From the NCBI RefSeq assembly GCF_019084045.1, contig NZ_JAHRED010000013.1, forward strand, positions 1 through 64,000: a DNA stretch of 64,000 nucleotides, in the 5' to 3' direction. The stretch comes from Paeniglutamicibacter quisquiliarum. Lineage in GTDB: Bacteria; Actinomycetota; Actinomycetes; Actinomycetales; Micrococcaceae. A model generated the notes under the pieces. The model was not told where the DNA came from, did no database searches, and worked only from the letters and a program-made list of their open reading frames with translations. Both the position numbers and the translations under genes were made by a program. This document shows positions 16,481 to 33,741 of the stretch, in pieces; positions within the stretch are counted from its first letter, which is position 1, and every line of letters begins with the position of its first letter.

Positions 16481-17248
16481 TCACCAGATGACAAAGCCGC
16501 CGTCAACAAGCAAATCCGTTCCGGTGACGAAGGAAGCGGCGTCGCTCAGCAGGAATGCCACTGGACCCGCGATATCCTCCGGCTCGGCGTTGCGGCCCAA
16601 AGGGGTGTCATTGGCATAGCCCGCCATCGCACTGGCCTGCTCGGGGCGTTTGGTCATTGGTGTGTTGGTGTAGCCAGGGCTAACGCTATTGACACGAATG
16701 CCCCGCGATGCCCACTCCCATGCAAGACTCTTGCCTAGTTGAACCACGCCCGCCTTGGCCGCGTTGTAGTGTGCCTGGACCAACCCTCGGTTGGCAATCG
16801 TTGCCGACATCGACGCGATGTTGACAATGGCGCCGCCACCGTTGCGCAACATCGCGTTTCCTTCGGCTTGGCATGACAAGAAAACACCCGTCAGATCCAC
16901 ATCCAGGACCTTCTTCCATTGCTCGACTGCCATGGATTCAGCGGGCGCGGCGTTGGCGATGCCCGCTGCATTTACGGCCAGCGAGAGCGGGCCGAACTTC
17001 CCTTCAACGAAAGCCACGGCGGCCACCATGTCGTCGGCGCGAGTAACATCTGCCGAGATGGATGTTGCGCTCCCTCCGGTACTCCGGATTTCGTTCACGA
17101 CGCCGTCCAAGTCGCTACCTTCCAAGTCGATGCATCCGACCGAGGCGCCGAGCCCGGCCAACGCCAGAGCGATGGCCCTGCCTATGCCGCTACTGGCCCC
17201 GGTGACTACAGCGGTCTTCTTTTCGAGTGAAAATGACGGAATGGCCAT
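16481..17248 (-). CDS. SDR family oxidoreductase of the polyol/sugar operon
   Basis: A 255-residue classical short-chain dehydrogenase. TGASSGIG (about residues 16-23) binds the nucleotide, followed by VNAAGIAN and the catalytic YNAAK with upstream Ser in NIASMSATIA. The C-terminal motif VTGTDLLVDGGFVIW is typical. Asp in GCIDLEGSD after strand 2 suggests NAD(H) preference. ATG 17248 has TTTAGGAGA six bases upstream. It is the last gene of the operon that begins with the substrate-binding protein at 22907, so it probably oxidises or reduces the imported sugar/polyol or an intermediate. Confidence 0.88.
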   Translation of the reverse strand: MAIPSFSLEKKTAVVTGASSGIGRAIALALAGLGASVGCIDLEGSDLDGVVNEIRSTGGSATSISADVTRADDMVAAVAFVEGKFGPLSLAVNAAGIANAAPAESMAVEQWKKVLDVDLTGVFLSCQAEGNAMLRNGGGAIVNIASMSATIANRGLVQAHYNAAKAGVVQLGKSLAWEWASRGIRVNSVSPGYTNTPMTKRPEQASAMAGYANDTPLGRNAEPEDIAGPVAFLLSDAASFVTGTDLLVDGGFVIW

Positions 17249-17310
17249 GAGGTGTCTCCTAAAATATTCGGTTTGGCGCCCTGGCATAGTTTCCGGGCCG
17301 CCGGCGGCAA

Positions 17311-18879
17311 TCAATTGTTGGTCTGGTGGCGGCGAACTATGCTCTGAAGGTCGCGGAAATTTCCCTGTACGTTGGAATAGATGTCTTTGTAGAGCTGGAA
17401 GTACTCCATATACATTTCGTGGTTCTTTTCATCGGGTTCCAGATGCTCGCGGTATTTGCACCATTCCTTGGCGACACTGAAATCATCGAATACGCCTACA
17501 CCGACTCCGGCGAGGATGGCATCTCCAAGCGGCGCTCCGGTGCGGCCCTTGAGCATGGCGGTGGGAATGCCAAAGACATCGGTGATAATCCGGCGCCAGA
17601 CGTCGCTCTTGGCACCACCTTCGTTGAAGATCAGCGGGTGGTTGATTTGCAGACCGGTTTGTTTGAGCACCGAGTAGGAATCGAAGAGAGCGTAAGCAAC
17701 GCCTTCCATGAATGCGCGGAATACGTGCCCGCGGTGATGGTGCAGCGAGAGTCCGAACATAACGGCCCTGGCGGATGTGTCCCAGATGGGCGAACGTTCG
17801 CCCATCAAGTACGGCAGAACGAGGAGTCCCTCGCTGCCTGGTGGAATATCTCGTGCTTGAAGCGTGATGAGATCGTATGAACTGACCTTCAACATTCGCT
17901 CGACGTCTACTTCGCCTTCTCCGAAGGTGTCGCGCAGGTAGCGCAGGGCCTGTCCGCCAGTCGTCGTGACCGCCACAGCCGCGAAAGTATCCCGCGGTGA
18001 AGTGGTGTATGGAATATTGACCATGCGCAGCCCATCTGGGGAATTGAGATAATCCAGATTCTGATGCACTACCCCCAATACGCCGCTGGTGCCCAGGTTT
18101 AACTGCATGTCACCCGGTTCGACTGCGCCGCCAGCGATCCAACCGGCATTGCAGTCGACCTGTCCGCCAACCACTTTGGTGCCTGCCATGAGGCCCGTGG
18201 AGCGCGCCGCTTCCGCGGAGACTTCGCCGACGATGTCCGTGCTGTCGCAGAGTCGAGGTATGAGCTCGGGGGAAATCTGGAGGCTGTCCAGAATGTCGTC
18301 CCGGAAAACGCCTTTTCGAATGTCGAAGGCCACGCCATAGAAAACCGCGGAACTGCTGTTGAGCGTATATTCGCCCGTGAGCCTTGAGACGATGAAGCCG
18401 TCGATGGTCAAAGCCTTGTGAATCCGTTCATAGACCTGCGGCTTATTGCGCTGATACCAGTACAGGTTGACGAGGTTCGGATGGTCTTCGATACGGTTCG
18501 CGGTCACCTCTTCGATCAATGATTCTCCTACCAAGTCCCGAATGATATTGACTTCTTCGGTGGCTCTGCGGTCCATCAAATTCGTGGCGGCAGCGACGGG
18601 TAGGTTTTGATCATCTACCAGCACCATCGAAGGAAGTGCACTTGATACGGCGATGCCGGCGATTTCCTGTGGCAGGCACTGAGTGTCCCGCAGTACCTGC
18701 TGGATCATTTCGCAGGTGGCGGTCCAGTATGTCTCAGGATCGTGCTCGGACCACCCGGGACGGTGGTGGAAGATGGGGTACTCGCGGTAGGCGTACGCCA
18801 AGACTTCTCCTTGATCATCAATGATGCAGGCCTTGGCACCGCCCGTACCGAAATCGATTCCAAGAAGCCGAGTGGCCAT
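17311..18879 (-). CDS. FGGY-family carbohydrate kinase (xylulokinase-like)
   Basis: A 522-residue sugar kinase of the FGGY fold. Domain I starts with LLGIDFGTGGAKACIIDDQG (phosphate 1 loop), and domain II has NLGTSGVLGVV and FNEGGAKSDVWRRIITDVFG, the FGGY signature area, then GAPLGDAILAGVGVG. WSEHDPETYW is typical of xylulokinase-like members. It should phosphorylate the pentose, tetrose or polyol brought in by the ABC transporter encoded just upstream (76-base gap). A second FGGY kinase at 24274 is of a different subgroup, so the two kinases probably act on different steps or substrates. Confidence 0.88.
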   Translation of the reverse strand: MATRLLGIDFGTGGAKACIIDDQGEVLAYAYREYPIFHHRPGWSEHDPETYWTATCEMIQQVLRDTQCLPQEIAGIAVSSALPSMVLVDDQNLPVAAATNLMDRRATEEVNIIRDLVGESLIEEVTANRIEDHPNLVNLYWYQRNKPQVYERIHKALTIDGFIVSRLTGEYTLNSSSAVFYGVAFDIRKGVFRDDILDSLQISPELIPRLCDSTDIVGEVSAEAARSTGLMAGTKVVGGQVDCNAGWIAGGAVEPGDMQLNLGTSGVLGVVHQNLDYLNSPDGLRMVNIPYTTSPRDTFAAVAVTTTGGQALRYLRDTFGEGEVDVERMLKVSSYDLITLQARDIPPGSEGLLVLPYLMGERSPIWDTSARAVMFGLSLHHHRGHVFRAFMEGVAYALFDSYSVLKQTGLQINHPLIFNEGGAKSDVWRRIITDVFGIPTAMLKGRTGAPLGDAILAGVGVGVFDDFSVAKEWCKYREHLEPDEKNHEMYMEYFQLYKDIYSNVQGNFRDLQSIVRRHQTNN

Positions 18880-18955
18880 TGATTCTTCTCCTACGTTCGT
18901 GCGCTGGCTGGAGTCGGCGCAATATTGGTTGCTGTAGTTTATACGGGGCGGATGG

Positions 18956-19978
18956 CTACTTGACCACGGCCGCTGTTCGGCGGTCGAAGGTCAACAGGAC
19001 GGCGAGAATGACCACGATTCCCTGAACGATCTGCTGGGCTGCCGGCGGCAATCCGATGATCAGCATTCCATTGGTGAGCTCAACAAGGATCAAGGTGCCA
19101 ATCAGGCCGCGGGCTGCGCCGCCCTGGCCGCCCGAGAGAGGTGTTCCGCCCATGACGATGGCGGCGATGGAGGGCAACAGAAATGAGTTGCCGATGTCGG
19201 GGGTAGCGGCGGTCGTAGAGAACAGCACCAGTACGCCTGCCAGACCACAGCAGAGGCCTCCGGCGCCGAAAGCCAGGGACTTGACCCAACGGACATTGAC
19301 GCCGCAGACTTTTGCGGCGCGCTCGTTGCCTCCGATTGCGTAGATGAATCGCCCAGTAGCGGTGCGACGCAGCCAAACAATCAGCAACAGCCAGAGGATC
19401 ACGGCATAGACCAGCGGCATTGGGAAGATCCCGAAAAGGCTCTGGTGAAAGGCCGCGTTGAGCGATCCGCTTACCAACTGGACAGGGAAGCCGCCGGAGG
19501 CCAGGAGCGCAATTCCACCAAAGACGAAGGAAGTCCCCAAAGTAACAAGGAATGACGGCAGCTTTATGTAGGAAACGATCACTCCGTTGAACAGCCCGAT
19601 CAGCAGCCCGAGGGGAAGTACCCAGAAGACAGCGGACTGCCCCATTGATTGGGCGAACAAGGCTGCCGCAACGGCACAGAGAGACACTATCGCCCCGACG
19701 GAGAGGTCGATGGACCCCATCAAGATCGGTGCCGTGCCTGCGGCGACCACCAACAGCAGCACAGAGGCCTGACGCATCATGCTGTCGAGGTTTCCCGGCG
19801 AGAGGTACTGGGCGTTCATGGTGGTGAAGATTATTGGCAGGATGACCAAGGCCGCGACCAGGAAAACCATTTGGTATCGGTCGCGCCTTGAGGCCTTTAG
19901 CGTTCCCATCGGTTTAAAAGCAGGTCCAGTGGGCATTGAGGTGCCTCGTTTGCGGCCAGTGAGTGGTTCGGTAATCAT
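18956..19978 (-). CDS. sugar ABC transporter permease (RbsC/AraH type)
   Basis: A 340-residue integral membrane protein with eight to ten helices. The segment LLLVVAAGTAPILMGSIDLS followed by VGAIVSL is the ribose/AI-2-type permease signature. YAIGGNERAAKVCGVNV is the EAA-like cytoplasmic loop that docks the ATPase. ATG 19978 has AGAGGGAG eight bases upstream. It is the only permease in the operon, so it probably works as a homodimer. It lies 20 bases downstream of the ATPase gene. Confidence 0.92.
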   Translation of the reverse strand: MITEPLTGRKRGTSMPTGPAFKPMGTLKASRRDRYQMVFLVAALVILPIIFTTMNAQYLSPGNLDSMMRQASVLLLVVAAGTAPILMGSIDLSVGAIVSLCAVAAALFAQSMGQSAVFWVLPLGLLIGLFNGVIVSYIKLPSFLVTLGTSFVFGGIALLASGGFPVQLVSGSLNAAFHQSLFGIFPMPLVYAVILWLLLIVWLRRTATGRFIYAIGGNERAAKVCGVNVRWVKSLAFGAGGLCCGLAGVLVLFSTTAATPDIGNSFLLPSIAAIVMGGTPLSGGQGGAARGLIGTLILVELTNGMLIIGLPPAAQQIVQGIVVILAVLLTFDRRTAAVVK

Positions 19979-19998
19979 CAGTGTTGCTCCCTCTAAGA

Positions 19999-21519
19999 CT
20001 AAGAAATTGACTCGGCCAGTTCGCCCAGCGTTGGTTCGGACTCGGAACGACAATCGAATTCGGCACTTACAACCCCGTCGCGAAACGCGATAATACGATC
20101 GCAAATGGGCATTAACTCTTCAGGTTCATCGCTGGCAATGAGAATCGCGACACCGCGGTCAGAAGCCTCTAGGACCAGACGAAAGATCTCTGCTTTGGCA
20201 TGGACATCGATACCACGGGTAGGTTTGTCCAGAACCACTACTCGGGCATCTTCCGACAGCGCGCGGGCGACCAGAAGCTTCTGCTGGTTTCCACCCGAGA
20301 GCGACCCGGCTGACTGGTTCAGACTCGACACCTTGACACCGAACTTGGTGACGAGGTCCTGGGCAAAAGCCTTCGCGGCATGGGGTTTGCGGGCCAGATC
20401 CTGGCGCCCCTCCGCGGCCATCGCCCCGAGTGACAAGTTGTCCTGGACCGAGTGCAGCAATGAAAGGCCCTCTCCAGCGCGGTCTGCAGGAACGAAACGG
20501 ATCCCCGCTTCCAAGGAACCTCGCACTCCGGCAGAGACCGGCTCGCCGTCGACGTTGATTGTGCCATCCTTGGCCTTGACCAGGCCCGAGACGCAACGGG
20601 CGACTGCGGTCTTCTCCTCCGACTCGCCAATGAGAGCAACGATCTCTCCTGGACGCAGTGTCATGCTAAACGGTTCGGCAATACTGGGCAGCGTCAGGCG
20701 TCGCAGTTCAAGCCGGTCCCGGTCGCCATCGATTCGTTTGTCGCGCCGGGTATGACGGACGACCTCGGTATCTCCGAGCAATAGACGGCTAAGTTGTTCG
20801 GGAGTGGTGGTTTTCGGATCAGGGGTGCCGACTACCTGTCCGTCGCGAAGCACAACGACACGGTCACTCCATTCGAGCAACTCACTGCCCCGGTGCGTGG
20901 TGAGGATGATTCCCATACTGGAACGCAGGTTGTTGATATGTTCCTCGAGGAAATCCACCTGAGATTGCGTGAGCCCGCTGGTTGGCTCATCCAACAGCAG
21001 GACAGGCTTCTCGATCTTAGCCAACCGCGCCATATACATCGCCTTGGCGATCTCCACCAGTTGTTTCTCCGCCATGGTCAGCTGGTCGACTCGCTTGGTG
21101 GCATCCAGGTCACCAAGACCGACGTCGTCAAGGAAGCCGCCGGCGATGTTGTTAATGCGATTGGGCGTAATCAGCCCAAACTTGCGGATATGGCGTTCGG
21201 TTCCTAGCGTTAGATTTTCCGCCACGGTGAGGTTGTCCATGACCGAGAGTTCCTGATAAATACGGAACACCCCCGCGCGCGTTGAATCATTGTAGGAAGA
21301 CGGCTGGAATGGGGTCCCATCGAGGGTCATCGAACCGCTGGTCGGGGCGAAATTCCCGGAGAGTATGTTTAGCAGGGTGGATTTACCGGCACCGTTGTGG
21401 CCAGCCAATCCCACTACTTCACCGAGCTTCAAGTCGAAGGAGACCGAATCCAGCGCCTTGAAGCCTTTGAAGACCTTGGTGAGATTCGTGATCTGGAGCA
21501 ATGAATCATCTGTATTCAT
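19999..21519 (-). CDS. sugar ABC transporter ATP-binding protein (two ABC domains)
   Basis: A 506-residue double ATPase like RbsA/MglA. The first domain holds Walker A GHNGAGKSTLLN and Walker B VLLLDEPTSGL; its signature motif is weakly kept (QLTMAEKQLVEIAK). The second domain has a degenerate Walker A (IGESEEKTAVAR), a good signature SLSGGNQQKLLVARAL and VVVLDKPTRGID, where Lys stands in for the catalytic Glu of DEPTRG. Such asymmetry is usual in this family. ATG 21519 follows the SBP stop after two bases, so translation is coupled. The long frame upstream to 21954 is shadow sequence. Confidence 0.92.
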   Translation of the reverse strand: MNTDDSLLQITNLTKVFKGFKALDSVSFDLKLGEVVGLAGHNGAGKSTLLNILSGNFAPTSGSMTLDGTPFQPSSYNDSTRAGVFRIYQELSVMDNLTVAENLTLGTERHIRKFGLITPNRINNIAGGFLDDVGLGDLDATKRVDQLTMAEKQLVEIAKAMYMARLAKIEKPVLLLDEPTSGLTQSQVDFLEEHINNLRSSMGIILTTHRGSELLEWSDRVVVLRDGQVVGTPDPKTTTPEQLSRLLLGDTEVVRHTRRDKRIDGDRDRLELRRLTLPSIAEPFSMTLRPGEIVALIGESEEKTAVARCVSGLVKAKDGTINVDGEPVSAGVRGSLEAGIRFVPADRAGEGLSLLHSVQDNLSLGAMAAEGRQDLARKPHAAKAFAQDLVTKFGVKVSSLNQSAGSLSGGNQQKLLVARALSEDARVVVLDKPTRGIDVHAKAEIFRLVLEASDRGVAILIASDEPEELMPICDRIIAFRDGVVSAEFDCRSESEPTLGELAESIS

Positions 21520-21521
21520 GG

Positions 21522-22907
21522 CTAGAACTTCGTCCCAAAGACGGTGGCACCGGTTGAAGTTAACCGGATGGCCTCGGCGTACGGGTTCTGTACGGCGTGC
21601 TCGGAATAGAGTTTGGTGAGCCGCTGAATGGCTCCGCCGTCGAGCGAGTCCTGCAAGGCGGGCGGGAACTCGAAGCCCTCGGGACGTTTGGTATTCAGGT
21701 CTTCGGTAAAGAACGGCACGGGATCCACCGGCGCCAGTGCCACCTGGCTGTCCCAGTCGTCCGGATGAAGGTGACGGGACATCTTCTTCCAATCGAATCC
21801 TGACGTGGCGCCTGTAGCAACACGCTTGTATTCGATGGCTGATTCCTTCGTATCGAGGACCAGCGAATCTTGGAACATCATGCGCTCGGCAGGGTCGTAC
21901 TGGATGCCATTGGTCAGGTCGAAGTTTCGTACCAACATGTACCCGCCGAGCCAAGTGCCGAAGATCGATTGAACGGCGACCACATTGGGGCCTTGAATCA
22001 ACTTGTCGAGGATCGCCAGCTGTTCGTCAGTACCACCCACCTTGATCCGGTCGTTTCCTTTTTCCTCGAGAACCGAGACAGCGCCGAGGGCAGAGGAAGA
22101 ATTGTGGCAGATGATTGCATCGATCTTGTCGAAGCGCGAGAGCATCGCTTGGACAACCGGACGAGTGTCTTGTCCGTTTTCCTTCCCGTCCTGTCGCGCC
22201 AAGACCTTGATGCCCGGGAAGCCAGCCACTGCCATGTCAAAGCCCTTCTCTCGGGCGTTGGAAGTGCGGTTGGTTGGCGCGCCCTGGATGTAGACCACGT
22301 TTCCGGAGCCTCCGATGGCCTTGAATACCGCCTCGCTTAGTGCCTTCTGGCCCAGGACTTCCCGTGGTGTGAACAACGTGGAGTACAAGTCCTGGAAGCC
22401 GGGTTCGGAAGGAACCATCCAGGGCGTTGCGGAGAATGAGGTCCCCAAAGGAATGTCCTGTTCGGCGAGGATTTCACCCATCTGTCGAACGGCGTCGTTG
22501 TTGATAGGGAAGGTTACGACCTGGCTGGCCCCGGCCGCCTTGGCGGAACGCAACTGGTTGATTTGGGTTGCCGCAGAGCCCTCGTAGCTTTGCATTCGAT
22601 AGGACAAGCCCAGGGCTGTGGCCGCCTCCTTCCCGCTTGCATTCCACATGGTGAAGTACTCGTTGGTCAGCGTGGGCACTGACGCAAGCGCGACGCCTGG
22701 GCCGGCGGCCGCGGTCTGACCGGAACCTGAACCCAAAGGCGCACTGCAGCCTGTCAGGGCCCCTCCGGATGCCAGGGCCACGGCGCCAAGGCCGAGCCCC
22801 TGAAGGAACTGTCGACGCCGCACTCCCGAGAACGCGTTGAGCTGCGCGGATGGACCGGAGGCTACGCCTGCTTCGGAATTCTTTGGATCGATCATGGGGG
22901 CTCGCAT
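21522..22907 (-). CDS. sugar ABC transporter substrate-binding lipoprotein
   Basis: A 461-residue periplasmic-binding-protein type 1 (ribose/AI-2-type) receptor. The N-terminus has a twin-arginine signal (VRRRQFLQGLGLG) and a lipobox LTGC, so it is exported folded by Tat and lipid-anchored. The mature part has the family blocks INQLRSAKAAGASQVVTFPI and KIDAIICHNSSSALGAVSVL, matching the hinge-facing ligand loops. It is longer than RbsB because of a C-terminal extension of about 90 residues. It is the first gene of the importer operon, with a 100-base leader carrying two operators. Confidence 0.9.
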   Translation of the reverse strand: MRAPMIDPKNSEAGVASGPSAQLNAFSGVRRRQFLQGLGLGAVALASGGALTGCSAPLGSGSGQTAAAGPGVALASVPTLTNEYFTMWNASGKEAATALGLSYRMQSYEGSAATQINQLRSAKAAGASQVVTFPINNDAVRQMGEILAEQDIPLGTSFSATPWMVPSEPGFQDLYSTLFTPREVLGQKALSEAVFKAIGGSGNVVYIQGAPTNRTSNAREKGFDMAVAGFPGIKVLARQDGKENGQDTRPVVQAMLSRFDKIDAIICHNSSSALGAVSVLEEKGNDRIKVGGTDEQLAILDKLIQGPNVVAVQSIFGTWLGGYMLVRNFDLTNGIQYDPAERMMFQDSLVLDTKESAIEYKRVATGATSGFDWKKMSRHLHPDDWDSQVALAPVDPVPFFTEDLNTKRPEGFEFPPALQDSLDGGAIQRLTKLYSEHAVQNPYAEAIRLTSTGATVFGTKF

Positions 22908-22990
22908 TTCATCTGAGTGTTTGCTCGACCGCTATCGGGTGGACTCTTTTGCGCGGATTCGAGGAAGTGCATCAAGGTGGAAAACGTGAA

Positions 22991-23053
22991 TCACATTTGT
23001 GAACACAGTCACGTATGTGATTCAAGGTTAGTGTCAGGCATCACATATGTCAA
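22991..23053 (-). promoter_or_regulatory. promoter and triple operator of the importer operon
   Basis: On the minus strand TTGACA (23048-23053) and TAACCT (23025-23030) are 17 bp apart. Three copies of a TCACRTATGTGA-like dyad surround them: TCACATATGTCA (23041-23052, over the -35), TCACGTATGTGA (23009-23020, just past the -10) and TCACATTTGTGA (22991-23002). The last two start 18 bp apart. A 12-base identical site and the same pair spacing occur at 30791-30820, so one regulator, most likely the SorC protein, should control both operons. The region 22908-23242 otherwise holds no gene. Confidence 0.75.
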
Positions 23054-23168
23054 CGAGCTATTGATGAATTGAAAGCCGCGCACACCCGGTCGGGCGCTCG
23101 CGAGGAAACACACAAGGTGTGGAGGGCGAGATTGGAGCAGCACGCGCAGCAGTTACGCGCACGACGAA

Positions 23169-23205
23169 TAAGGCCCTCTTGAGTGGTGAACTCGAGAGGG
23201 CCTTA
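23169..23205 (-). terminator. terminator hairpin of the SorC operon
   Basis: TAAGGCCCTCTTGAG and CTCGAGAGGGCCTTA form a nearly perfect 15-bp stem with a seven-base loop, 37 bases after the SorC stop on the minus strand. No strong T-run follows. It separates the enzyme operon from the importer operon. Confidence 0.7.
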
Positions 23206-23242
23206 ACCAAAATCCTCGGTGGTGGGTTTCGCAGCCGCTGAG

Positions 23243-24205
23243 CTACGATGCGGCGAGTGCCTTGCCCAGGGGGCTATCGACGATTAGCACATTGACAAGT
23301 CCGCCTTCGATGGCGGCCGTGACGGCCTGTGCCTTGGATTCTCCGCTGGCCACGGCCACGACCGTTTCAATCGCTTGCAGGTCGCTAAGGTCGAGGGAGA
23401 TGATGCGCTTGTTGATGGCCAGATCCAGCTGCCGTCCGGCGGAATCGTAAAACCGGCCGGAGATCTGTCCAATGGCACCGCGCTCGATCGCCTCCTCGAT
23501 TTCCTCGTCGGAGGCCCCGGCCCGCTGCAGGAACAGGTTTGAGCTGTCTAATCCGTAATGGCCGACGCCGAGAACCGCGACGTTAGAGGTTCGACCAAGT
23601 GCCAGCGCGTTGGAAACCTGTTCCGTGCGCATCAAAGCTGCGGCTGCTTGTTCATCCTGCATGGTTGCCGGCGCATTAAAGTATTGGTAGCGACCACCTA
23701 GCTTTTCAGCGAGGTTGCGCACCAGATCGTGACCCGAGAATCGGGAGTCGATGCTCAATTCCCCAGCAAGCTGAACCACTTGCACATCAACGCGGCGACT
23801 GAAGCTGGCGCTTTCGACCATCGCCTCCACTGTGCTGCCCCAACATAATCCCAGGGTCTGTCCATCGTTGAGATTTTTCTCCAGCCAGTCACAAGCGGCC
23901 TGGCCAACTGCCAGTAATCCGCGGCTTGATTCGCCGGGGTCGCTAGCTCGGCCCGGAACGACAACTACTTCGTTCACGCCCGAGTCCGAGAATTTGGCCA
24001 GCAGGCGCTGTTCGAGAGCTGGATCGCGATCCAGGGGGTATGCAATCTCGAACTTCACGATGTACTGCTCCCTGGCGGCCCGCAACATGCGTGAGACATT
24101 CGATCGTGTGACGCCGAGTTGCTTGGCGACATCCATTTGCGACTGCCCTTGGATGTAATAGAGGAACGCGGCGTGTGCGAGCCTCTCGGCACTGAGTCTT
24201 GCCAT
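23243..24205 (-). CDS. SorC family sugar-responsive transcriptional regulator
   Basis: A 320-residue regulator of the SorC/DeoR-B. subtilis/LsrR type. The N-terminal helix-turn-helix is AAFLYYIQGQSQMDVAKQLG, then VTRSNVSRMLRAAREQYIVK. The large effector domain has the sugar-phosphate-binding blocks GLLAVGQAACDWLEKNL, LGLCWGSTVEAMVESAS, VAVLGVGHY and GQISGRFYDSAGRQLDL. Family members bind phosphorylated sugars and usually repress until the phospho-inducer appears. It ends the enzyme operon 68 bases after the kinase and is the natural candidate for the TCACRTATGTGA operators. EryD of erythritol loci belongs to the same family. Confidence 0.92.
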   Translation of the reverse strand: MARLSAERLAHAAFLYYIQGQSQMDVAKQLGVTRSNVSRMLRAAREQYIVKFEIAYPLDRDPALEQRLLAKFSDSGVNEVVVVPGRASDPGESSRGLLAVGQAACDWLEKNLNDGQTLGLCWGSTVEAMVESASFSRRVDVQVVQLAGELSIDSRFSGHDLVRNLAEKLGGRYQYFNAPATMQDEQAAAALMRTEQVSNALALGRTSNVAVLGVGHYGLDSSNLFLQRAGASDEEIEEAIERGAIGQISGRFYDSAGRQLDLAINKRIISLDLSDLQAIETVVAVASGESKAQAVTAAIEGGLVNVLIVDSPLGKALAAS

Positions 24206-24273
24206 GCTGCTCCCCTTACCGGCACATCATGCGCCTTGAATGAACTTTGTACCCATTCTAGATCGAGAAAGGA

Positions 24274-25761: not shown

Positions 25762-25841
25762 GTCGTTCTCCTTTAAAAACGCGTCGGTTCGCGCCCCAAC
25801 GAAGGAAACGGGGCGCGAACCGACCACCTGAATGGCGATTA

Positions 25842-26099
25842 TTATGCGTCGGGGACGCTTTCGCCTTCTTCGCCGATGTAGGCGATGATGCTGCCGGCAT
25901 TGACCGTGCTGCCCTCGGGGCAGACGATCTTATGCAGGATTCCGTCGGCAACGCACTCAACCTCGATTGTGGCCTTATCGGTTTCCACGCTCAGCAGCGG
26001 TTGGCCCATTTCGACCTCATCACCCTCTGCGGCGAGCCACTCTTCGATGTACGCTTCGTCGCTGGTCTGACCCAGCGCGGGCATGACGATGGCTTCCAT
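25842..26099 (-). CDS. free-standing lipoyl-domain protein
   Basis: An 85-residue protein consisting of one lipoyl/biotinyl domain: MEAIVMPALGQTSDEAYIEE, then the lipoylation site VETDKATIEVE with Lys42. In ordinary E2 enzymes this domain is fused to the catalytic core. Here it is separate, as is the core at 31216. It should carry acyl groups between the fused E1 encoded six bases upstream and the E2 core. No lipoyl synthase or ligase is nearby, so it must use the general lipoylation machinery. Confidence 0.9.
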   Translation of the reverse strand: MEAIVMPALGQTSDEAYIEEWLAAEGDEVEMGQPLLSVETDKATIEVECVADGILHKIVCPEGSTVNAGSIIAYIGEEGESVPDA

Positions 26100-26105
26100 G
26101 GTCCG

Positions 26106-28199
26106 CTACTCGCTTTCAGTTCGATTGTGATTGGCAGACAGTACTTCGCGTACCGCTGCTTCGATGTGCTCGGCCAACGGCAGCACGGCTGCTTCAAGCG
26201 GCGGGGAGAACGGCATCGGGATATCGCGGCTCGCGACGCGGCGCACCGGGGCCTTGAGGTCCGCAAACAATTCATCGGAGACGCGCGCGCTGACCTCGGC
26301 ACCCCAGCCTCCCGTCAGATGCGCCTCGTGGGCGATCACCAGGCGTCCGGTGCGCTTGACGCTCTCCATCACCGTGTCCCAGTCGAAGGGATTGAGCCAG
26401 ACCGGATCAATGACCTCCAGTTCGATTCCTTCTTCGGCCAACTTCTCGGCCAGTTCCAGAGCCTTGTAAAGCTCCGTGAAGGTCGCGACCACGGTGGCGT
26501 GCTTTCCGCGGCGTCTCACCCTGGCCTGTCCCACTGGAAGAGCGAAGTTCTCTTCGGGAACGTAGGCCTTGGTGTTGATGGATCCGGCCTCCTGACGTTT
26601 GGCCCCGTAGAGCAACTTGTGCTCGAACACCAGCACGGGGTCGTCGTCGCGGATCGCTGCGGTCAGTGCACCCTTGGCGGTGTAGGGATCGGAGATGCAC
26701 AGGACCTTGATGCCAGGGACGTGCATGAAGAAGCTCTCCGGGCACTGGGAGTGCTGTGCACCGCGCTGGGAGGCACCGACCGGGCAACGCAACACCATCG
26801 GGATGGTGAGCTTGCCGTTGGACATATAGCGCTGCTTGGCCGCCTCGTTGACCAGCTCGTCCATGGCCTCGAAGACGAAATCCGCATACTGCAGGTCCGG
26901 GACGGTGCGCATTCCGCCGATGGCTGCGCCGATGGACGCGCCGATGATGGCCTTCTCACTGATCGGGGTGTCGATCACGCGGTCGCGGCCGTATTCTTCG
27001 GCCAAACCCTGGTAGACACCGAATGCTCCGCCGAAGCCGCCGGGTACGCCGACGTCCTCGCCCAGCAATACCAGGTCCGGGTCCGTCGCAAGTTCCCGGT
27101 GCAGGGTCTCCCGGATTGATTCCGCGATCGAGATGAAACGATCCTCCTCCCCATCTTCCGCGAGGGGACCGGCCCCCTCAACCTTCTGTGGTGGGTTTCC
27201 ATAGATGATGTTCGGGGCCAATGCGGTCTCGGGATCCGGCCACGGCGCCTGCTGAGCGTGCTTCAGTGCCTCGGCAATACGCTTCTTCGCCCGCTTGGTG
27301 CTTTCCTTGACCTGCTCTTCGGTAGCGGTACCCTCTTCGACCAAGGCCTCGCCGAAGGTCTTGATCGGGTCCTTAGCCGTCCAGTAGGCCTCTTCTTCCT
27401 TGGTGCGGTAGCCGCGGGCATCGCCGCGGCTATGGCCCACATATCTGTACGTCAGGAATTCGAGGAGGACCGGACCCTTGCCGCTGCGGGCAGTCTCCAG
27501 TGCTCGTTGCATGGCACCGCGCACTGCTCGGACATCCATGCCGTCTGCCTGCTCGGACGGGATCCCATAGGACTCGCCCCTCGAGGCCACATTGATGTTT
27601 CTGGTCGTTTCATGGAACGGGGTCGAAGCTCCGTACATGTTGTTTTCGCAAACGAAAATGACCGGAAGATTGAGTGCTGCCGCATAGTTGACGCCTTCAT
27701 GGAAAGCGCCTTCGTTAACTGCTCCGTCACCGAAGAAGCAAACCACGACGTTGTCGGTGCCCTTGTGCTTGAGCGCGTGGGCCAATCCCGGGGCGATCGT
27801 GATGCCGCCCCCGACGATGGCAATGGAAGGCAGGATTCCCAAGGCAGGATCGCCCAGGTGCATCGATCCGCCGCGTCCGCCCAAACATCCGGTCTCACGA
27901 CCATAGATCTCGGCCATGCCGGCTGCCGGGTCGAGTCCCTTGGCCAAGGCGTGTCCGTGAGGGCGGTGCGTGGACGTGATCCAGTCCTCAGTGCGCAATA
28001 GTGAGCACACGCCGACCGCGACGGCTTCCTGTCCTTGTGACTGGTGCAGCGTACCGGGGATCTCACCCTGCAGGTAGCGCAAGTACGCCGTTTGCTCGAA
28101 CTGGCGGATGAGCACCATTTCCTCGAGCAAGTGAAGGCTTTCGTCAGTGCCCAAGGCTGGGGCCTGGATGGAGCTTGCCTGTGGGGACATTAGCGACAT
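26106..28199 (-). CDS. fused E1 alpha-beta subunit, 2-oxoacid/acetoin-type dehydrogenase
   Basis: A 697-residue thiamine-diphosphate enzyme. Residues 1-330 are the alpha part, with GDGAVNEG (157-164) and ENN (185-187), the TPP/Mg site, and YVGHSRGDARGYRTKEE, the loop near the phosphorylation region of E1 alpha. Residues 365-690 are the beta part with VLLGEDVGVPGGFGGAFGVY, DTPISEKAIIGASIGAAIGG and GAQHSQCPESFF. Fusion of alpha and beta is known but less common than separate genes. It decarboxylates or cleaves a 2-oxo or acetoin-like compound and passes the acyl group to lipoate. The start overlaps the aldolase stop by one base. E3 is not in the window. Confidence 0.9.
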   Translation of the reverse strand: MSLMSPQASSIQAPALGTDESLHLLEEMVLIRQFEQTAYLRYLQGEIPGTLHQSQGQEAVAVGVCSLLRTEDWITSTHRPHGHALAKGLDPAAGMAEIYGRETGCLGGRGGSMHLGDPALGILPSIAIVGGGITIAPGLAHALKHKGTDNVVVCFFGDGAVNEGAFHEGVNYAAALNLPVIFVCENNMYGASTPFHETTRNINVASRGESYGIPSEQADGMDVRAVRGAMQRALETARSGKGPVLLEFLTYRYVGHSRGDARGYRTKEEEAYWTAKDPIKTFGEALVEEGTATEEQVKESTKRAKKRIAEALKHAQQAPWPDPETALAPNIIYGNPPQKVEGAGPLAEDGEEDRFISIAESIRETLHRELATDPDLVLLGEDVGVPGGFGGAFGVYQGLAEEYGRDRVIDTPISEKAIIGASIGAAIGGMRTVPDLQYADFVFEAMDELVNEAAKQRYMSNGKLTIPMVLRCPVGASQRGAQHSQCPESFFMHVPGIKVLCISDPYTAKGALTAAIRDDDPVLVFEHKLLYGAKRQEAGSINTKAYVPEENFALPVGQARVRRRGKHATVVATFTELYKALELAEKLAEEGIELEVIDPVWLNPFDWDTVMESVKRTGRLVIAHEAHLTGGWGAEVSARVSDELFADLKAPVRRVASRDIPMPFSPPLEAAVLPLAEHIEAAVREVLSANHNRTESE

Positions 28200-29095
28200 T
28201 AGCGGCCTGCCTGACCGGTCGATCCGAATACGTCCATGAGACGCTGGATTTCCTTGGTGAGCGCGACACCTGCACGGGAGTTGGCGTCACCTTCGAAACG
28301 CGATCCGAACACGAGGTTGGGATCTTCGACCGGCCGGCCCAGCTCGGCCACGAGGGCTTGACCGAACACGTGCTTGAGCTTGGTTCCGACATTGACCTTC
28401 GTAATACCTGCTTCGACGGCGCGACGCGTCTGATCGTCAGGCGTGCCCGAACCGCCGTGCAGCACCAACGGGACATTCACGGCGTTGCCAATCTCCTTGA
28501 TGAGGTCGACCTGAACCGTAGGGATGTGTCCGCCCGTGACGAAGTGAACGTTTCCAACAGCGACTGCCAAGCAATCGACGCCGGTTTCCTTGACGAAGAA
28601 TTCTGCGGATTCCGGGCTGGTGTAGGAGGCCCCGGCCTCATCGAGCACACCGTCCTTGATCTCTGCCAACGCGCCGATCTCGCCTTCGACCGCGATGTTC
28701 AATGCGTGTGCGGCTGCCACCAGCGAAGCGGTATCGGCGATGAGTTTGTCCTGATCCCATCCCTGGGTGTGCATCATGACGGAGTTGAAGCCCGCTCCGA
28801 GGCCGCCGGCGGCCTCGGAGAAGCTTTCTGCTTCGTTGAACAGCGTAGCCACGGGGACCTTGGCACGGTCCGCCAGTGTACGGCAAGCTGCGCCGTACAG
28901 TTCGAGACCACCGGACTGCAGCCATTCATGGTTGCCCGACAGGCCACCGATACCGAGGATGACCGGGGAACGGTTGGCTTCGGCCGCTGCAATGGTGGCT
29001 TCGAGGCTGTAGATGTCCCAAGACTCGAAGTAACCAACAGCGTAGCGGTTCTTGCCGGCGTGCTCGAGCAGTTCTGGAAGGGTGACGAGAGACAT
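28199..29095 (-). CDS. class II aldolase-family protein with altered metal site
   Basis: A 298-residue member of the class II fructose/tagatose-bisphosphate aldolase family. It keeps VEGEIG (Glu139), VGNVHF (His184) and VLHGGSG (His213), which hold zinc ligands, and the overall barrel pattern. However, the normal ALHLDHG block reads TLFNEAE (residues 84-90): the catalytic Asp is Asn87 and the first zinc His is Glu88. The usual KINxDT phosphate loop reads KVNVGT. So ordinary ketose-bisphosphate cleavage is unlikely, and a different substrate, chemistry or metal geometry is probable. It is in one operon with GlpD-like, E1, lipoyl, kinase and SorC genes. Confidence 0.85.
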   Translation of the reverse strand: MSLVTLPELLEHAGKNRYAVGYFESWDIYSLEATIAAAEANRSPVILGIGGLSGNHEWLQSGGLELYGAACRTLADRAKVPVATLFNEAESFSEAAGGLGAGFNSVMMHTQGWDQDKLIADTASLVAAAHALNIAVEGEIGALAEIKDGVLDEAGASYTSPESAEFFVKETGVDCLAVAVGNVHFVTGGHIPTVQVDLIKEIGNAVNVPLVLHGGSGTPDDQTRRAVEAGITKVNVGTKLKHVFGQALVAELGRPVEDPNLVFGSRFEGDANSRAGVALTKEIQRLMDVFGSTGQAGR

Positions 29096-29145
29096 TGTTA
29101 GAGCTCCATTTTCTGGTTGGTGGTTCGTTCTTGTAACTTGCGGGG

Positions 29146-30777
29146 TTATGCGGGAAAGAGGTCTTTAGCGAAGCGCGGTCTGCGTTGGAGTATCCATTCG
29201 CGGTAGGCCTCGATTTCTGTTGTGGTCTGTTGCCGGTCCCATTTCAATTCCGTTGCAGCCAATTCGGCGACAGCTTCAAGGGATTGCAATCCGGCATCAT
29301 CAGACCATGCCAGAAGTAACCGTCGTGCGACGATATCGGTCAGTGTCACGGCGAATTCCTCCCGGACAGCGATGGCAACCTCTGCGCCGATGGCGTGGGC
29401 CGTTCCGCTGATGGGTGCCGCGAGCGCCGGATCGCTGCGGGCAAGCGCCTCCACGGATTCGGCACGGATTCCGTAGAGGTCCAGAAGCCTCCGTGCGGTG
29501 GGCTCGGGCAGGATGCTTCGCTTCAGGAATTCGGCCTGATAACCGTTCCAGTCCGCGCAGCGGGCACCCGGCAACTTCATCCGACGCGTCCGCGAGCGGG
29601 ACTCGCCAGGACAGCGACCGAGGCCGTGGACGTGGCGTTTCAGCACCCTCATCGTCAGTTCGCCCAACGCGCGGTGCGTGGTGAGCTTTCCGCCGCTGAT
29701 GCTGAATAAGCCGGGCAGCGTCGGGTGAGCGATGACCTGGTGGTCCCGGCTAACCTGCGCGGCCGACTTTGCTTTGGGTGCATAGGGTAGCGGACGCACA
29801 CCGGCCACTGAATGCACGATGTCCTCCGGTGCAAGCCTGGCCTGCGGAATGAGGGCGTTGACTTCCTGCAACAGATAACTGACTTCGTCATCGCTCATGA
29901 TGGCTTCGGAAGGGTCACCCTCAAAGAACAGGTCGGTCGATCCGATCAGGTAGTTCCCGTCCGGTAGCGGCAGAACCAAAATCGCTCGACCATCACTGGT
30001 CGCTTCGTAGTGAACCCCTGTGGACGGGGCACCAGGAAACCGCTTTACGGTCAGATGGGAACCCTTTGTCCCGCCAATCAACTGGTTGCTTGTTTCGGAC
30101 GAATGGCTGAGGACCTTGTCTACCCAGGGGCCGGCTGCGTTGACCACCGTCCTCGCTGGTTGCAAGAACTTCCTCCCGGTCAGCGTATTGACGATCTGGA
30201 CGCGCAGTTCCTTTCCGTCTCTTGCCAGCCCGACGACTCGGTGGTGATTGTCTACCCGACCACCTTGGTTGGCAATGTCCAAGGCTTGTTCAATGCACAG
30301 CCTTTCCGCATGGGCGGCTTGGGCGTCGTAGTAGAGCACGGCGCCGGAGAGCCCACGGGTTTCGATGCCCGGGGAGTCTTTGATGACCTCGGCGGCGGAA
30401 AGGGACCTGTGACGCCCCGTGGACTTGTCGAATGACAAAACGTCATACAAGAACATCCCCAGACGCAATATGCGGGCCGACCGGCTGTTATGGCTAAAGA
30501 AGGGAATGAGCAACGGGAACGGTTTGACTAGATGCGGTGCGTTTTGCAGGAGTCGTTCCCGCTCACACAGCGACTCCCGGACCAAGCGGACCTCGAAGTT
30601 TTCCAAGTATCGGATGCCTCCGTGTATCAGCCGACTCGAAGCTGCGGACGTACCGGCCCCGAAGTCTTCGGCTTCGGCTACTGCCACCGACCATCCGCTG
30701 AAGGCAGCTTCGCGCCCCACTGCCAGGCCGTTGACGCCCCCGCCGATTACGAGAACGTCAACCGATGGGAGCACCAT
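29146..30777 (-). CDS. GlpD-like FAD-dependent polyol-phosphate dehydrogenase
   Basis: A 543-residue flavoprotein of the glycerol-3-phosphate dehydrogenase family. VDVLVIGGGVNGLAVGREAA binds FAD, SSRLIHGGIRYLENFEVRLV and GTKGSHLTVKRFPGAPSTGV are the GlpD signatures, and PDGNYLIGSTDLFFEGDPSE is the typical FAD/substrate region. Besides GlpD itself the family includes EryB, which oxidises erythritol 4-phosphate. In this operon, with a glycerol-kinase-like enzyme, it should oxidise the polyol phosphate to a ketose phosphate and pass electrons to quinone. ATG 30777 leaves both operators untranslated. ATG 30825 coincides with the predicted transcription start and could give a leaderless, 16-residue longer protein. 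Confidence 0.9.
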   Translation of the reverse strand: MVLPSVDVLVIGGGVNGLAVGREAAFSGWSVAVAEAEDFGAGTSAASSRLIHGGIRYLENFEVRLVRESLCERERLLQNAPHLVKPFPLLIPFFSHNSRSARILRLGMFLYDVLSFDKSTGRHRSLSAAEVIKDSPGIETRGLSGAVLYYDAQAAHAERLCIEQALDIANQGGRVDNHHRVVGLARDGKELRVQIVNTLTGRKFLQPARTVVNAAGPWVDKVLSHSSETSNQLIGGTKGSHLTVKRFPGAPSTGVHYEATSDGRAILVLPLPDGNYLIGSTDLFFEGDPSEAIMSDDEVSYLLQEVNALIPQARLAPEDIVHSVAGVRPLPYAPKAKSAAQVSRDHQVIAHPTLPGLFSISGGKLTTHRALGELTMRVLKRHVHGLGRCPGESRSRTRRMKLPGARCADWNGYQAEFLKRSILPEPTARRLLDLYGIRAESVEALARSDPALAAPISGTAHAIGAEVAIAVREEFAVTLTDIVARRLLLAWSDDAGLQSLEAVAELAATELKWDRQQTTTEIEAYREWILQRRPRFAKDLFPA

Positions 30778-30790
30778 CCAATCTTCATTC

Positions 30791-30861
30791 TCACAATTGT
30801 GCACTTGCTCACGTATGTGATTCATAAGTAGAGTATGACTCAGGTCACGACCGGCTGTCAA
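30791..30861 (-). promoter_or_regulatory. promoter and double operator of the enzyme operon
   Basis: On the minus strand TTGACA (30856-30861) and CATACT (30832-30837) have an 18-bp spacer, placing transcription start near 30825. Directly downstream lie TCACGTATGTGA (30809-30820) and TCACAATTGTGC (30791-30802), 18 bp apart start to start. The first is identical to the site at 23009-23020 and is followed by the same TTCA. The placement past the -10 implies repression. Confidence 0.75.
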
Positions 30862-31215
30862 TGCGGAAGCAGGGTTGTGAGGAATCGAATGTGGTTCCCG
30901 CTATTGATGAGGAAACACCGTTGTCCGTGGGGCCGGCAGGGCAAGCTTGCCAAGCCGAAGGTGGTGAGTCGAATCAATGGTTGTGCTCGCGCCTTTGGGT
31001 GCGAACGGCCTAGCTGATTGGATTAATGGCGAAATGCGAACTCGCGGCATGCGCAAATCACCGGTCAAGTCGTGCCGGGCAAACCCTCGAATCGCAACAA
31101 CCGCGGTCCGGAACGGGTGGCTTTGGCGCCAGCGAATTGGGCGGATATGTCGCGCAAGATGCGATTCGATACGGCAACAACATCTGAGCAACACGAAAAG
31201 AAGGAAGCACATCGC
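30862..31215. other. divergent intergenic region between GlpD-like and E2 genes
   Basis: These 354 bases contain the upstream part of the GlpD promoter and presumably a promoter for the E2 gene. A perfect 12-base palindrome GGCAAGCTTGCC lies at 30940-30951. I see no copy of the TCACRTATGTGA operator near the E2 start and no coding frame with support. Confidence 0.4.
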
Positions 31216-31893
31216 ATGAAAACCCAGAACGACATTCCTGAACTGGTAGGAACGCTTGTCCCGTTGAAAGGAATTCGGCGTGCAGCGGCGCGTCAAATGG
31301 TTGCCGCCTGGCAAGCGCCTGCATTCCACCTGACCATGGAAGTCGACATGTCCAATGTCCTGAAGATTAAGGCCGCGTCCCCTGAATCAACGGTCACCGA
31401 CAGGCTCATCAGCGCTACGGCACTGGCTCTATTGGATCATCCCGGTCTTAATGCACACTACTCAGAGGATGGGATCACAACCTTCGAGGATGTGAACATT
31501 GGCATCGCGGTGGCAACCGAGGCAGGCCTGACCGTTCCCGTTGTGCACGGAGCACCAAAACTGAGCTTGCCGGAAATCGCGGATCGAAGGCGTGAGGTGG
31601 TTGAAAAGGCCCGGGCCAAAAAGCTTGGACTGGCCGACATTTCCGCAGGCACCTTCACAATTTCGAATTTGGGGATGCTCGGCGTTGATCGGTTTGACGC
31701 AATCATTAACGTCCCGCAGGTGGCAATCCTGGCGGTCGCCGCGACTAGGCAGCGTTACGTGATGACTGAAGCGGGTGCTGAATGGCGTCCCATCACCGAG
31801 CTGACGTTGACTTGTGATCACCGGGCGGTTGACGGGTCCATGGGTGCGCGGTTCCTTGCCCGACTCAAGGAAGTTCTCGAATCGGAGCTCTGA
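31216..31893 (+). CDS. E2 acyltransferase core without lipoyl domain
   Basis: A 225-residue catalytic domain of 2-oxoacid dehydrogenase acyltransferases. LVPLKGIRRAAARQMVAAWQ opens the domain, VNIGIAVATEAGLTVPVVHG and FTISNLGMLGVDRFDAIIN follow, and DHRAVDG holds the catalytic His202 and Asp206. Normal E2 proteins are 400-550 residues with lipoyl and subunit-binding domains; both are absent here, and the lipoyl domain is encoded separately at 25842. ATG 31216 has AAGGAAG eight bases upstream. It is transcribed divergently from the operon with E1 and lipoyl protein and should transfer their acyl group to CoA. Confidence 0.9.
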   Translation: MKTQNDIPELVGTLVPLKGIRRAAARQMVAAWQAPAFHLTMEVDMSNVLKIKAASPESTVTDRLISATALALLDHPGLNAHYSEDGITTFEDVNIGIAVATEAGLTVPVVHGAPKLSLPEIADRRREVVEKARAKKLGLADISAGTFTISNLGMLGVDRFDAIINVPQVAILAVAATRQRYVMTEAGAEWRPITELTLTCDHRAVDGSMGARFLARLKEVLESEL

Positions 31894-33354: not shown

Positions 33355-33741
33355 ATGCTTCTGGAACAACGCACCTACGACATATCCCCGGGTGTTCCGA
33401 TGACCGATTTCCTGCGCGAGTATTCCAAGCGCGGGCTTCCTGCACAGAAGCGGATCCTTGAGGGATTCGTGGGATATTTCGTGACGGAGTTCGGAACCCA
33501 GAACCAGGTGAACCACTTTTGGGCCTTTGCCGATCTTGAGGACCGGCGTCGCCGGCGCGCCGCGCTGGCCGCAGACCCGGAGTGGCAGGACTGCATTTCG
33601 GTGGTACGTCCCATGATCGTTCGATGGGACAACAAGATCATGTACCCCACAGATTTTTCCCCCATCAATTCTCTTCCCGTGGGCAGCGACGAGCCGTTCA
33701 CGGCATTCACCTACACCGGGACGGGAACGAACGCATCATGA
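33355..33741 (+). CDS. NIPSNAP family protein
   Basis: A 128-residue dimeric alpha-beta-barrel protein of the NIPSNAP family, with no assigned chemistry. MLLEQRTYDISPGVPMTDFL is the typical start, and FVGYFVTEFGTQNQVNHFWA with the following DLEDRRRRRAALAADPEW are the family signatures. Members often sit in catabolic operons for unusual sugars and acids. Its stop overlaps the start of the next gene as ATGA, indicating coupled translation with the SAF-type dehydrogenase. Confidence 0.85.
   Translation: MLLEQRTYDISPGVPMTDFLREYSKRGLPAQKRILEGFVGYFVTEFGTQNQVNHFWAFADLEDRRRRRAALAADPEWQDCISVVRPMIVRWDNKIMYPTDFSPINSLPVGSDEPFTAFTYTGTGTNAS

Follow-up and report, generated by a model that had tools for sequence, protein, structure and literature searches.

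Loci for erythritol use (ery) in Rhizobiales and Brucella comprise EryA, EryB, the regulator EryD and a transporter, as set out in the available text of PMC3599248. The present work concerns a gene cluster of Paeniglutamicibacter quisquiliarum at positions 16,481 to 31,893 of contig NZ_JAHRED010000013.1, in which a class II aldolase-like enzyme and the E1, lipoyl and E2 parts of a 2-oxoacid dehydrogenase complex stand among genes for polyol or sugar use. The DNA analysed, referred to as the window, covers the opening 64 kb of this 99,942-base contig, which belongs to an actinobacterial genome of 4.44 Mb. Like the ery loci, the cluster has an FGGY kinase, a GlpD-like gene, a regulator and a transporter, but EryC, TpiB and RpiB of those loci have no counterpart among the matches listed, the aldolase-like enzyme and E1/lipoyl/E2 standing in their place. 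The families to which EryA and EryB belong are presumed here. A first-pass annotation of the same DNA had drawn the ery comparison, and it held for the gene families and failed for the pathway. As that annotation had stated, the EryC, RpiB and TpiA families are absent from the matches listed for the 12 locus genes (the best 25 for the short-chain dehydrogenase/reductase, SDR, and for the importer ATPase), and a module of the type that forms acyl-coenzyme A (acyl-CoA) is present in place of the ery isomerases. Among 418 plasmid records matching the GlpD-like enzyme of the window, one (the Arthrobacter cluster described below) reached 60-80% identity and 417 remained below 60%, no identified EryB being compared directly; the published identity cut-off for EryB is 65%, according to the available text of PMC3599248. 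The ery likeness is superficial, being one of gene families and not of pathway.

By analogy, the closest chemical model for the E1 is acetoin dehydrogenase (aco), in which E1 alpha and beta, a lipoyl domain and E2 yield acetyl-CoA through acyloin cleavage. The types of part are the same and E1 relatives annotated acoA are 45% identical to the window E1, but the latter is fused, its lipoyl and E2 domains are encoded by separate genes, and it belongs to a probable polyol regulon with an aldolase. With fructose- and tagatose-bisphosphate aldolases, YdjI and SqiA, the aldolase-like enzyme has in common the fold and residues H184, H213 and N235, whereas it carries Asn-Glu for the canonical Asp-His, from which it is termed here the NE type, and Glu for Asn at position 24. 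A further likeness is to the IolC/IolJ branch of inositol catabolism: the kinase that accompanies the NE aldolase is of the PfkB type in many Verrucomicrobiota, Planctomycetota and Chloroflexota loci, and the one member scanned had IolC as its best model, below cut-off. In NE loci, however, E1/E2 comes next, and other iol genes were not noticed, no search having been aimed at them; an inositol route, suggested by the kinase resemblance by itself, was set aside. The autoinducer-2 Lsr pathway has a SorC-type regulator, an FGGY kinase, an importer and a CoA-dependent last step, all of which have counterparts in the window, but there the CoA step belongs to a thiamine pyrophosphate (TPP)/lipoyl complex, and the LsrF and LsrG families do not occur among the matches listed for the 12 locus genes.

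Every enzyme of the locus comes from a known superfamily, and there is a real chance that the pathway is new. In our estimate the case is evenly balanced that the NE aldolase and its dedicated TPP/lipoyl complex form an undescribed route from a ketose phosphate, or from a hydroxyaldehyde cut from it, to an acyl-CoA in 14 named phyla. Aldoses would enter it by a lyxose- or fucose-type isomerase and a kinase of the PfkB or FGGY family, polyols by GlpK/GlpD or dehydrogenase/kinase pairs. No description of the NE aldolase/E1 pairing or of its chemistry was found in the literature searched, a partial open library, which makes this weak evidence. Class II aldolases and pyruvate-dehydrogenase-like complexes are among the best studied enzymes. 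If the proposal is true, it would make sense of the "pyruvate dehydrogenase" genes that adjoin those for sugar kinases in Planctomycetota, Verrucomicrobiota, Chloroflexota and gut Bacillota; the acyl-CoA-forming step might also be useful for engineering.

The NE-type aldolase subfamily

The window aldolase has the triose-phosphate isomerase (TIM)-barrel fold of class II aldolases, as seen from its PF01116 match, its predicted structure and Foldseek, while the Asp-His pair is absent. Alignment to solved class II aldolases places Asn87-Glu88 at the positions that we take to be those of the catalytic Asp and the neighbouring zinc-ligand His. The structural model (predicted local distance difference test, pLDDT, 94.5) gave TM scores of 0.77-0.93 to class II aldolases over the 50 Foldseek matches listed, those for sulfofructose phosphate and fructose bisphosphate coming closest; PDB 3gb6, the Giardia D83A mutant with fructose bisphosphate, is among these matches. 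In the available text of PMC8119897, the catalytic aspartyl side chain is described as oriented by the active-site zinc. No NCBIfam model listed for the window aldolase reaches its cut-off.

A four-member alignment was used to scan 84,980 species, each represented by a single genome; 138 relatives were recovered and the 80 best retained. N87 and E88 are present in 81/81 sequences (these 80 and the window enzyme), as are E24, W26 and S30; in all six canonical controls, positions 24, 87 and 88 are occupied by Asn, Asp and His, respectively. Since the seeds of the scan held FES and WD.YS, E24 and W26 were partly selected, whereas N87 and E88 were not. G181 and H213 (81/81 each) and H184 and N235 (79/81 each), presumably residues of the metal and dihydroxyacetone phosphate (DHAP) side, are kept. 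In a tree of 30 of the 81 NE rows with 22 canonical rows, 21 of the latter matching the simple DH pattern, the subfamily lies on its own side of a branch with an approximate likelihood ratio (SH-aLRT) support of 99. The plasmid-borne NE protein nevertheless carries the name class II fructose-bisphosphate aldolase, although the subfamily is without the catalytic Asp.

Pairing with a split 2-oxoacid dehydrogenase

Of a 2-oxoacid dehydrogenase complex, the locus encodes a TPP-fold E1, a lipoyl domain and an E2 catalytic domain, but their division is unusual: E1 is an alpha/beta fusion, the lipoyl domain has a gene to itself, and E2 is a bare catalytic domain of 225 residues matching PF00198 alone, with no lipoyl or subunit-binding domain. 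Of the 30 genome matches to the E3 model none lies on the contig of the window; contig 34 carries the single match above cut-off. Besides the window E1, the genome has three further E1 alpha/beta loci, which are 30-39% identical to it.

Partner genes were counted within 9 kb of the NE aldolase at the 80 retained loci. E1 alpha is found at 58, E1 beta at 57 and both at 56; a lipoyl domain occurs at 59, an E2 catalytic domain at 33, a PfkB or FGGY kinase at 51, and an isomerase gene (lyxose-isomerase-like, D-lyxose-isomerase or fucose-isomerase-like) at 23. Many of the contigs are short, and among the 38 loci with at least 6 kb on each side the counts are 32 for both E1 halves, 32 for lipoyl, 19 for E2, 28 for kinase and 11 for isomerase. 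Around canonical class II aldolases, E1, lipoyl, E2, kinase and isomerase are all at 0/20, these controls being actinobacterial relatives only, whereas the subfamily loci span phyla; one control had a PfkB match at 1e-6, below the threshold used. The 80 loci are spread over 17 named phyla (Aerophobetes counted once) and E1 and aldolase occur together in 14, although many loci belong to metagenome-assembled genomes, so that single phyla may be binning errors. In the window and on a plasmid described below, the aldolase, E1 and lipoyl genes are contiguous between the GlpD and GlpK-like genes. Two of the 38 loci with long flanks, L062 and L093 (L numbers designate the loci compared), have none of the partner genes near the NE aldolase.

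Position 191 of E1 alpha is Ala in 60/60 module members. The 11 comparison rows, from eight loci, have Met (three loci), Ile (three), Ser (one) or Val (one); six of these rows are the three host loci counted twice, and are gapped at alpha 121-127.

Several other features recur around the module. In L055, L059, L063 and L095 the lipoyl domain and E1 alpha seem to form one frame of 466-527 residues, with no E2 catalytic match. URO-D family proteins recur beside the NE aldolase in L050 (scanned) and in L063, L069, L070 and L072 (by clustering). A beta-keto acid cleavage enzyme (BKACE) gene lies ahead of SorC in L031 (4631-5578, scanned) and L032 (about 7446, by clustering), two relatives whose modules were found with neither a XylB-like nor an E2 gene nearby. 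Lipoyl synthase genes are present in two clusters, as lipA annotated in Shinella and as a LIAS_N match in L029.

Operator-like sites shared by the two halves

The palindrome ATCACATATGTGAT was scanned with up to three mismatches across the window and in shuffled sequences. Four sites were found against 0.82 expected, a number reached in 0/100 shuffles. The sites resemble TCACATATGTGA, and their copies in the window stand solely ahead of the importer and of GlpD. Because the palindrome precedes both, the sugar half and the 2-oxoacid-dehydrogenase half probably constitute one regulon, as judged from sequence. The promoter-like site ahead of GlpD (30861-30832) is of a kind no commoner than in shuffles. 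As both this site and the operator-like site fall within the longer GlpD open reading frame (ORF), the true start of the gene is probably 30777.

Sites of the same type were found in all eight further loci inspected (L028-L033, L108 and L109) at up to three mismatches, and in seven at up to two, the exception being L033. They precede both halves in L028, L029 and the plasmid pair L108/L109, and the importer ATPase and the aldolase in L031; L028, L031 and L109 have a few extra sites in other places. The joining of the two halves that the first-pass annotation had claimed is thus upheld by common operator-like sites and by a pairing kept over many phyla, and their co-induction is predicted in sequence terms.

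Proposed pathway and alternative explanations

From the parts, the shared sites, the recurrence of the module and the residue changes, all directly visible in the sequences, we infer the substrates, the uptake of a polyol, the order of the last two steps and the product. As a tentative proposal, possible rather than probable, the locus would be a SorC-controlled regulon for polyol catabolism in which a ketose phosphate is cut by the aldolase-like enzyme and the resulting aldehyde is converted into an acyl-CoA by the TPP/lipoyl complex. The importer would take up a polyol, for which a pentitol or a compound like it is the likeliest candidate. By one route, the GlpK-like kinase would phosphorylate it and the GlpD-like enzyme oxidise the carbon adjoining the phosphate, giving a ketose 1-phosphate; by another, the SDR would oxidise first and the XylB-like kinase then phosphorylate, giving a product of like kind. 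The NE aldolase would split the ketose phosphate into DHAP and a short hydroxyaldehyde, for example glycolaldehyde. Finally, E1/lipoyl/E2, with E3 supplied from elsewhere in the genome, would carry out the TPP-dependent conversion of the aldehyde, yielding glycoloyl-CoA on oxidation or acetyl-CoA on dehydration, as in phosphoketolase.

The aldolase step is placed before E1 mainly because a canonical aldolase fills its slot in clusters of Rubrobacter and Shinella. Outside the Arthrobacter plasmid, the best plasmid relatives of GlpD are those of Rubrobacter indicoceani (47%) and Shinella (45%, two records), and in both clusters importer genes and a lipoyl protein accompany E1 alpha, E1 beta and a class II aldolase of canonical HLDHG (Asp-His) type. 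In Shinella there is in addition an E2 51% identical to that of the window, while its FGGY kinases share 24-30% identity with each of the two window kinases; the Rubrobacter cluster has a GlpK-like kinase of 42% identity. The GlpD/E1/lipoyl set would thus be able to work with a presumably normal aldolase that releases DHAP and an aldehyde from a ketose 1-phosphate. The earlier suggestion that a polyol enters as a ketose phosphate stands as a reading in that GlpD of 45-47% identity stays with E1/lipoyl, whereas the GlpK-like kinase is kept in Rubrobacter only.

Several observations weigh against this proposal. The NE aldolase lacks the catalytic Asp, so that continued cleavage is assumed, and we know of no E1 complex that has a free hydroxyaldehyde as its normal substrate. 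E1 of Rubrobacter and Shinella is 38-44% identical to that of the window, little above the 30-39% of the host's other loci; A127 and A191 of E1 alpha, present in 60/60 NE clusters, are Gly and Leu there, and R479 and Y506 of E1 beta (58/58) are both missing, so the E1 of these two clusters may act on another substrate. The Rubrobacter cluster (L117) has no operator-like site, and that of Shinella (L118) has one with three mismatches, within a gene. Moreover, 6 of the 38 full-flank NE loci are without E1, two of them keeping lipoyl/E2, and of the 32 in which E1 is present, 14 lack an E2 catalytic domain in the surrounding 9 kb.

Ranked next after cleavage by the aldolase is the route put forward by the first-pass annotation, which we regard as rather unlikely: E1 would attack the ketose phosphate itself as an acyloin, in the manner of acetoin dehydrogenase or an oxidative transketolase, producing an acyl-CoA and an aldose phosphate, with the NE aldolase as a preparatory epimerase or isomerase. 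The loss of the catalytic Asp and the kinship with acoA-annotated proteins agree with direct attack, Ala191 may widen the E1 pocket, and another plasmid pairs a DRL-type oxidoreductase with E1-E2 and phosphotransferase system (PTS) genes, an arrangement that fits cleavage of deoxyxylulose 5-phosphate. The canonical enzyme in Rubrobacter and Shinella needs no preparatory role, however, and no epimerase activity is known to us in the NE subfamily; as originally framed, the scheme gave the aldolase no part at all, although it is the constant partner.

That the complex is simply a dedicated pyruvate dehydrogenase oxidising DHAP-derived pyruvate, with nothing new in its chemistry, appears improbable. 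The best family matches of E1 and E2 are indeed pyruvate dehydrogenase models, but they fall under the curated cut-offs, the genome already has its three other E1 alpha/beta loci, and E1 is tied to the NE aldolase and to none of the 20 canonical aldolases of relatives. More doubtful still is a scheme in which the NE enzyme, similar to methylglyoxal synthase but on an aldolase fold, eliminates phosphate from a ketose 1-phosphate, the 1-deoxy-2,3-dione then being cut by E1 to acetyl-CoA and a sugar acid. The retention of metal- and DHAP-side residues with loss of the Asp and one His would suit such an elimination, yet the phosphate added by the kinase would be wasted, the clusters with a canonical aldolase fit poorly, and we are aware of no precedent in the aldolase fold. 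Two unrelated neighbours, one for polyol use and one a branched-chain oxoacid dehydrogenase, as the E2 on the opposite strand might suggest, are very hard to reconcile with the operator-like sites common to both halves, with the unbroken run of aldolase, E1 and lipoyl genes that is enclosed by GlpD and GlpK-like genes in window and plasmid, and with the proximity of these three to importer and GlpD genes in the Rubrobacter and Shinella clusters.

Entry enzymes in other clades

The genes that would feed the module differ between clades. The clade of the window holds both the GlpK-like/GlpD-like and the XylB-like/SDR pair. In gut Bacillota (L094, L100, L103 and L105), E1-E1-aldolase-E2 is followed by a kinase 48-50% identical to the window XylB-like enzyme and by a gene, grouped by clustering, that we take to be E3. 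Dihydroxyacetone kinase was identified by scanning in L094 and L028, and the N-half of a transketolase in L094 (scanned) and in L100 and L103 (by clustering). A small cupin forms a cluster of 15 members, of which 14/14 scanned match PF07385, and its profile matches a solved D-lyxose/D-mannose isomerase at 3.8e-86. The compact operon L081 consists of DeoR, NE aldolase, PfkB kinase, E2, E1 alpha, E1 beta and the lyxose-isomerase-like cupin, and operons of this type would form a complete aldose-to-acyl-CoA set. No aldehyde dehydrogenase was noticed in them, ORFs without kin in other loci not having been examined; the gene maps show just ORFs with kin in another locus, and absences there mean little. 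Some loci have extra genes for what we assume, from sequence features, to be GH38 enzymes.

Probable mobility of the cluster

Arthrobacter sp. FW306-07-I carries the same cluster on a plasmid of 101,757 bases whose typing is conjugative. The order from GlpD to SDR is identical to that of the window and spans the record ends, with E2, lpdA (adjoining E2) and thiC ahead of GlpD. Its proteins are 65-91% identical to those of the window (SDR 80%, sugar-binding protein 75%). Comparison was made at the protein level, megablast of the locus against plasmids having covered just 1%. In the available text of PMC9723602, the plasmid-bearing strain is reported to have grown on 47 of 58 sources, with no tie to the cluster. 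The thiC gene (L109, 20369-22099) adjoins E2/E3 on this plasmid, as if it were a thiamine supply of its own for E1.

In 14/14 congeners the window aldolase has no match above 39% identity, and the guanine-cytosine content of the locus (59.4%) is under that of its flanks (64.4% and 64.8%), for which reasons the locus was probably acquired horizontally. Among 394 genomes sampled from the class, just three others have an aldolase relative at E 1e-55 or better; the cluster occurs in other Actinomycetota as well. A scan of viral contigs with the aldolase gave no relative.

Gene content and neighbouring genes

Genes were identified from an ORF listing and family scans (NCBIfam, Pfam), after which starts were corrected (Table 1). 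All the components that the first-pass annotation had named were found by these means: the ATP-binding cassette (ABC) importer, two FGGY kinases, GlpD-like enzyme, variant aldolase, SDR, SorC regulator and E1/lipoyl/E2. The GlpK-like enzyme is not called a glycerol kinase because its score falls under the curated cut-off, and the GlpD-like enzyme likewise misses the cut-off for glycerol-3-phosphate dehydrogenase. The translations of the lipoyl protein and E2 contain ETDKA and DHRAVDG, read here as lipoyl-domain and E2 motifs, respectively. Rfam and transfer RNA scans of the window gave no match.

Table 1. Genes and operator-like sites of the locus, in window coordinates.
Feature	Position	Strand	Basis
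SDR oxidoreductase, probably polyol/ketose dehydrogenase	16481..17248	-	NCBIfam NF004774, 360.2 bits, barely above cut-off 360; ATG at 17248
FGGY kinase, XylB-like, probably ketose kinase	17311..18879	-	Pfam FGGY_N/C; XylB 326 bits, cut-off 380
Sugar ABC importer, permease	18956..about 19978	-	Family scan; corrected start
Sugar ABC importer, ATPase with two ATPase domains	19999..21519	-	Family scan; corrected start
Sugar-binding protein of importer	21522..22907	-	Weak RbsB/XylF matches
Three operator-like palindromes ahead of importer	22990..23053 (22990, 23008, 23040)		2 mismatches each to ATCACATATGTGAT
SorC/DeoR-type sugar-binding regulator	23243..24205	-	PF04198, 193 bits; only PF04198 match in genome
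FGGY kinase, GlpK-like, probably polyol kinase	24274..about 25761	-	TIGR01311, 403 bits, cut-off 590
Free-standing lipoyl domain, 85 residues	25842..26099	-	PF00364, 73.5 bits
Fused E1 alpha/beta, TPP-dependent	26106..28199	-	E1_dh, Transket_pyr, Transketolase_C; PDH_E1_alph_y 341.5 bits, cut-off 393.85
Class II aldolase-like enzyme, NE subfamily	28199..29095	-	PF01116; Asn87-Glu88 for Asp-His
GlpD-like flavin adenine dinucleotide (FAD) polyol-phosphate dehydrogenase	29146..about 30777	-	DAO and DAO_C; GlpD model 335 bits, cut-off 360
Operator-like palindrome ahead of GlpD, directly after promoter-like site	30808..30821		ATCACATATGTGAT scan
E2 catalytic domain alone, 225 residues, divergent	31216..31893	+	PF00198, 228 bits, no lipoyl match; corrected start

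Beyond the locus, a DRL_cat/SAF-domain oxidoreductase of the deoxyxylulose-phosphate-reductoisomerase-like family (PF21135) is encoded at 33582-35087 (+). Next to it, in a separate unit possibly for a sugar acid, lie the genes of a kdgT-like transporter at 35136 and of an HpaI-like aldolase at 36268. A methylerythritol route was rejected for the window locus, this gene belonging to another transcription unit with no operator-like site, and no gene of the DRL family being annotated in the two plasmid stretches viewed. On a plasmid of Pseudoroseomonas cervicalis (NZ_CP115854; L121, 6577-11334), DRL_cat lies directly 5' of E1 alpha, E1 beta and E2, the set being flanked by glucitol-type and other PTS genes. 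Judged by its gene content, L121 appears suited to convert a methylerythritol-type phosphate into acetyl-CoA, with deoxyxylulose 5-phosphate as the intermediate.

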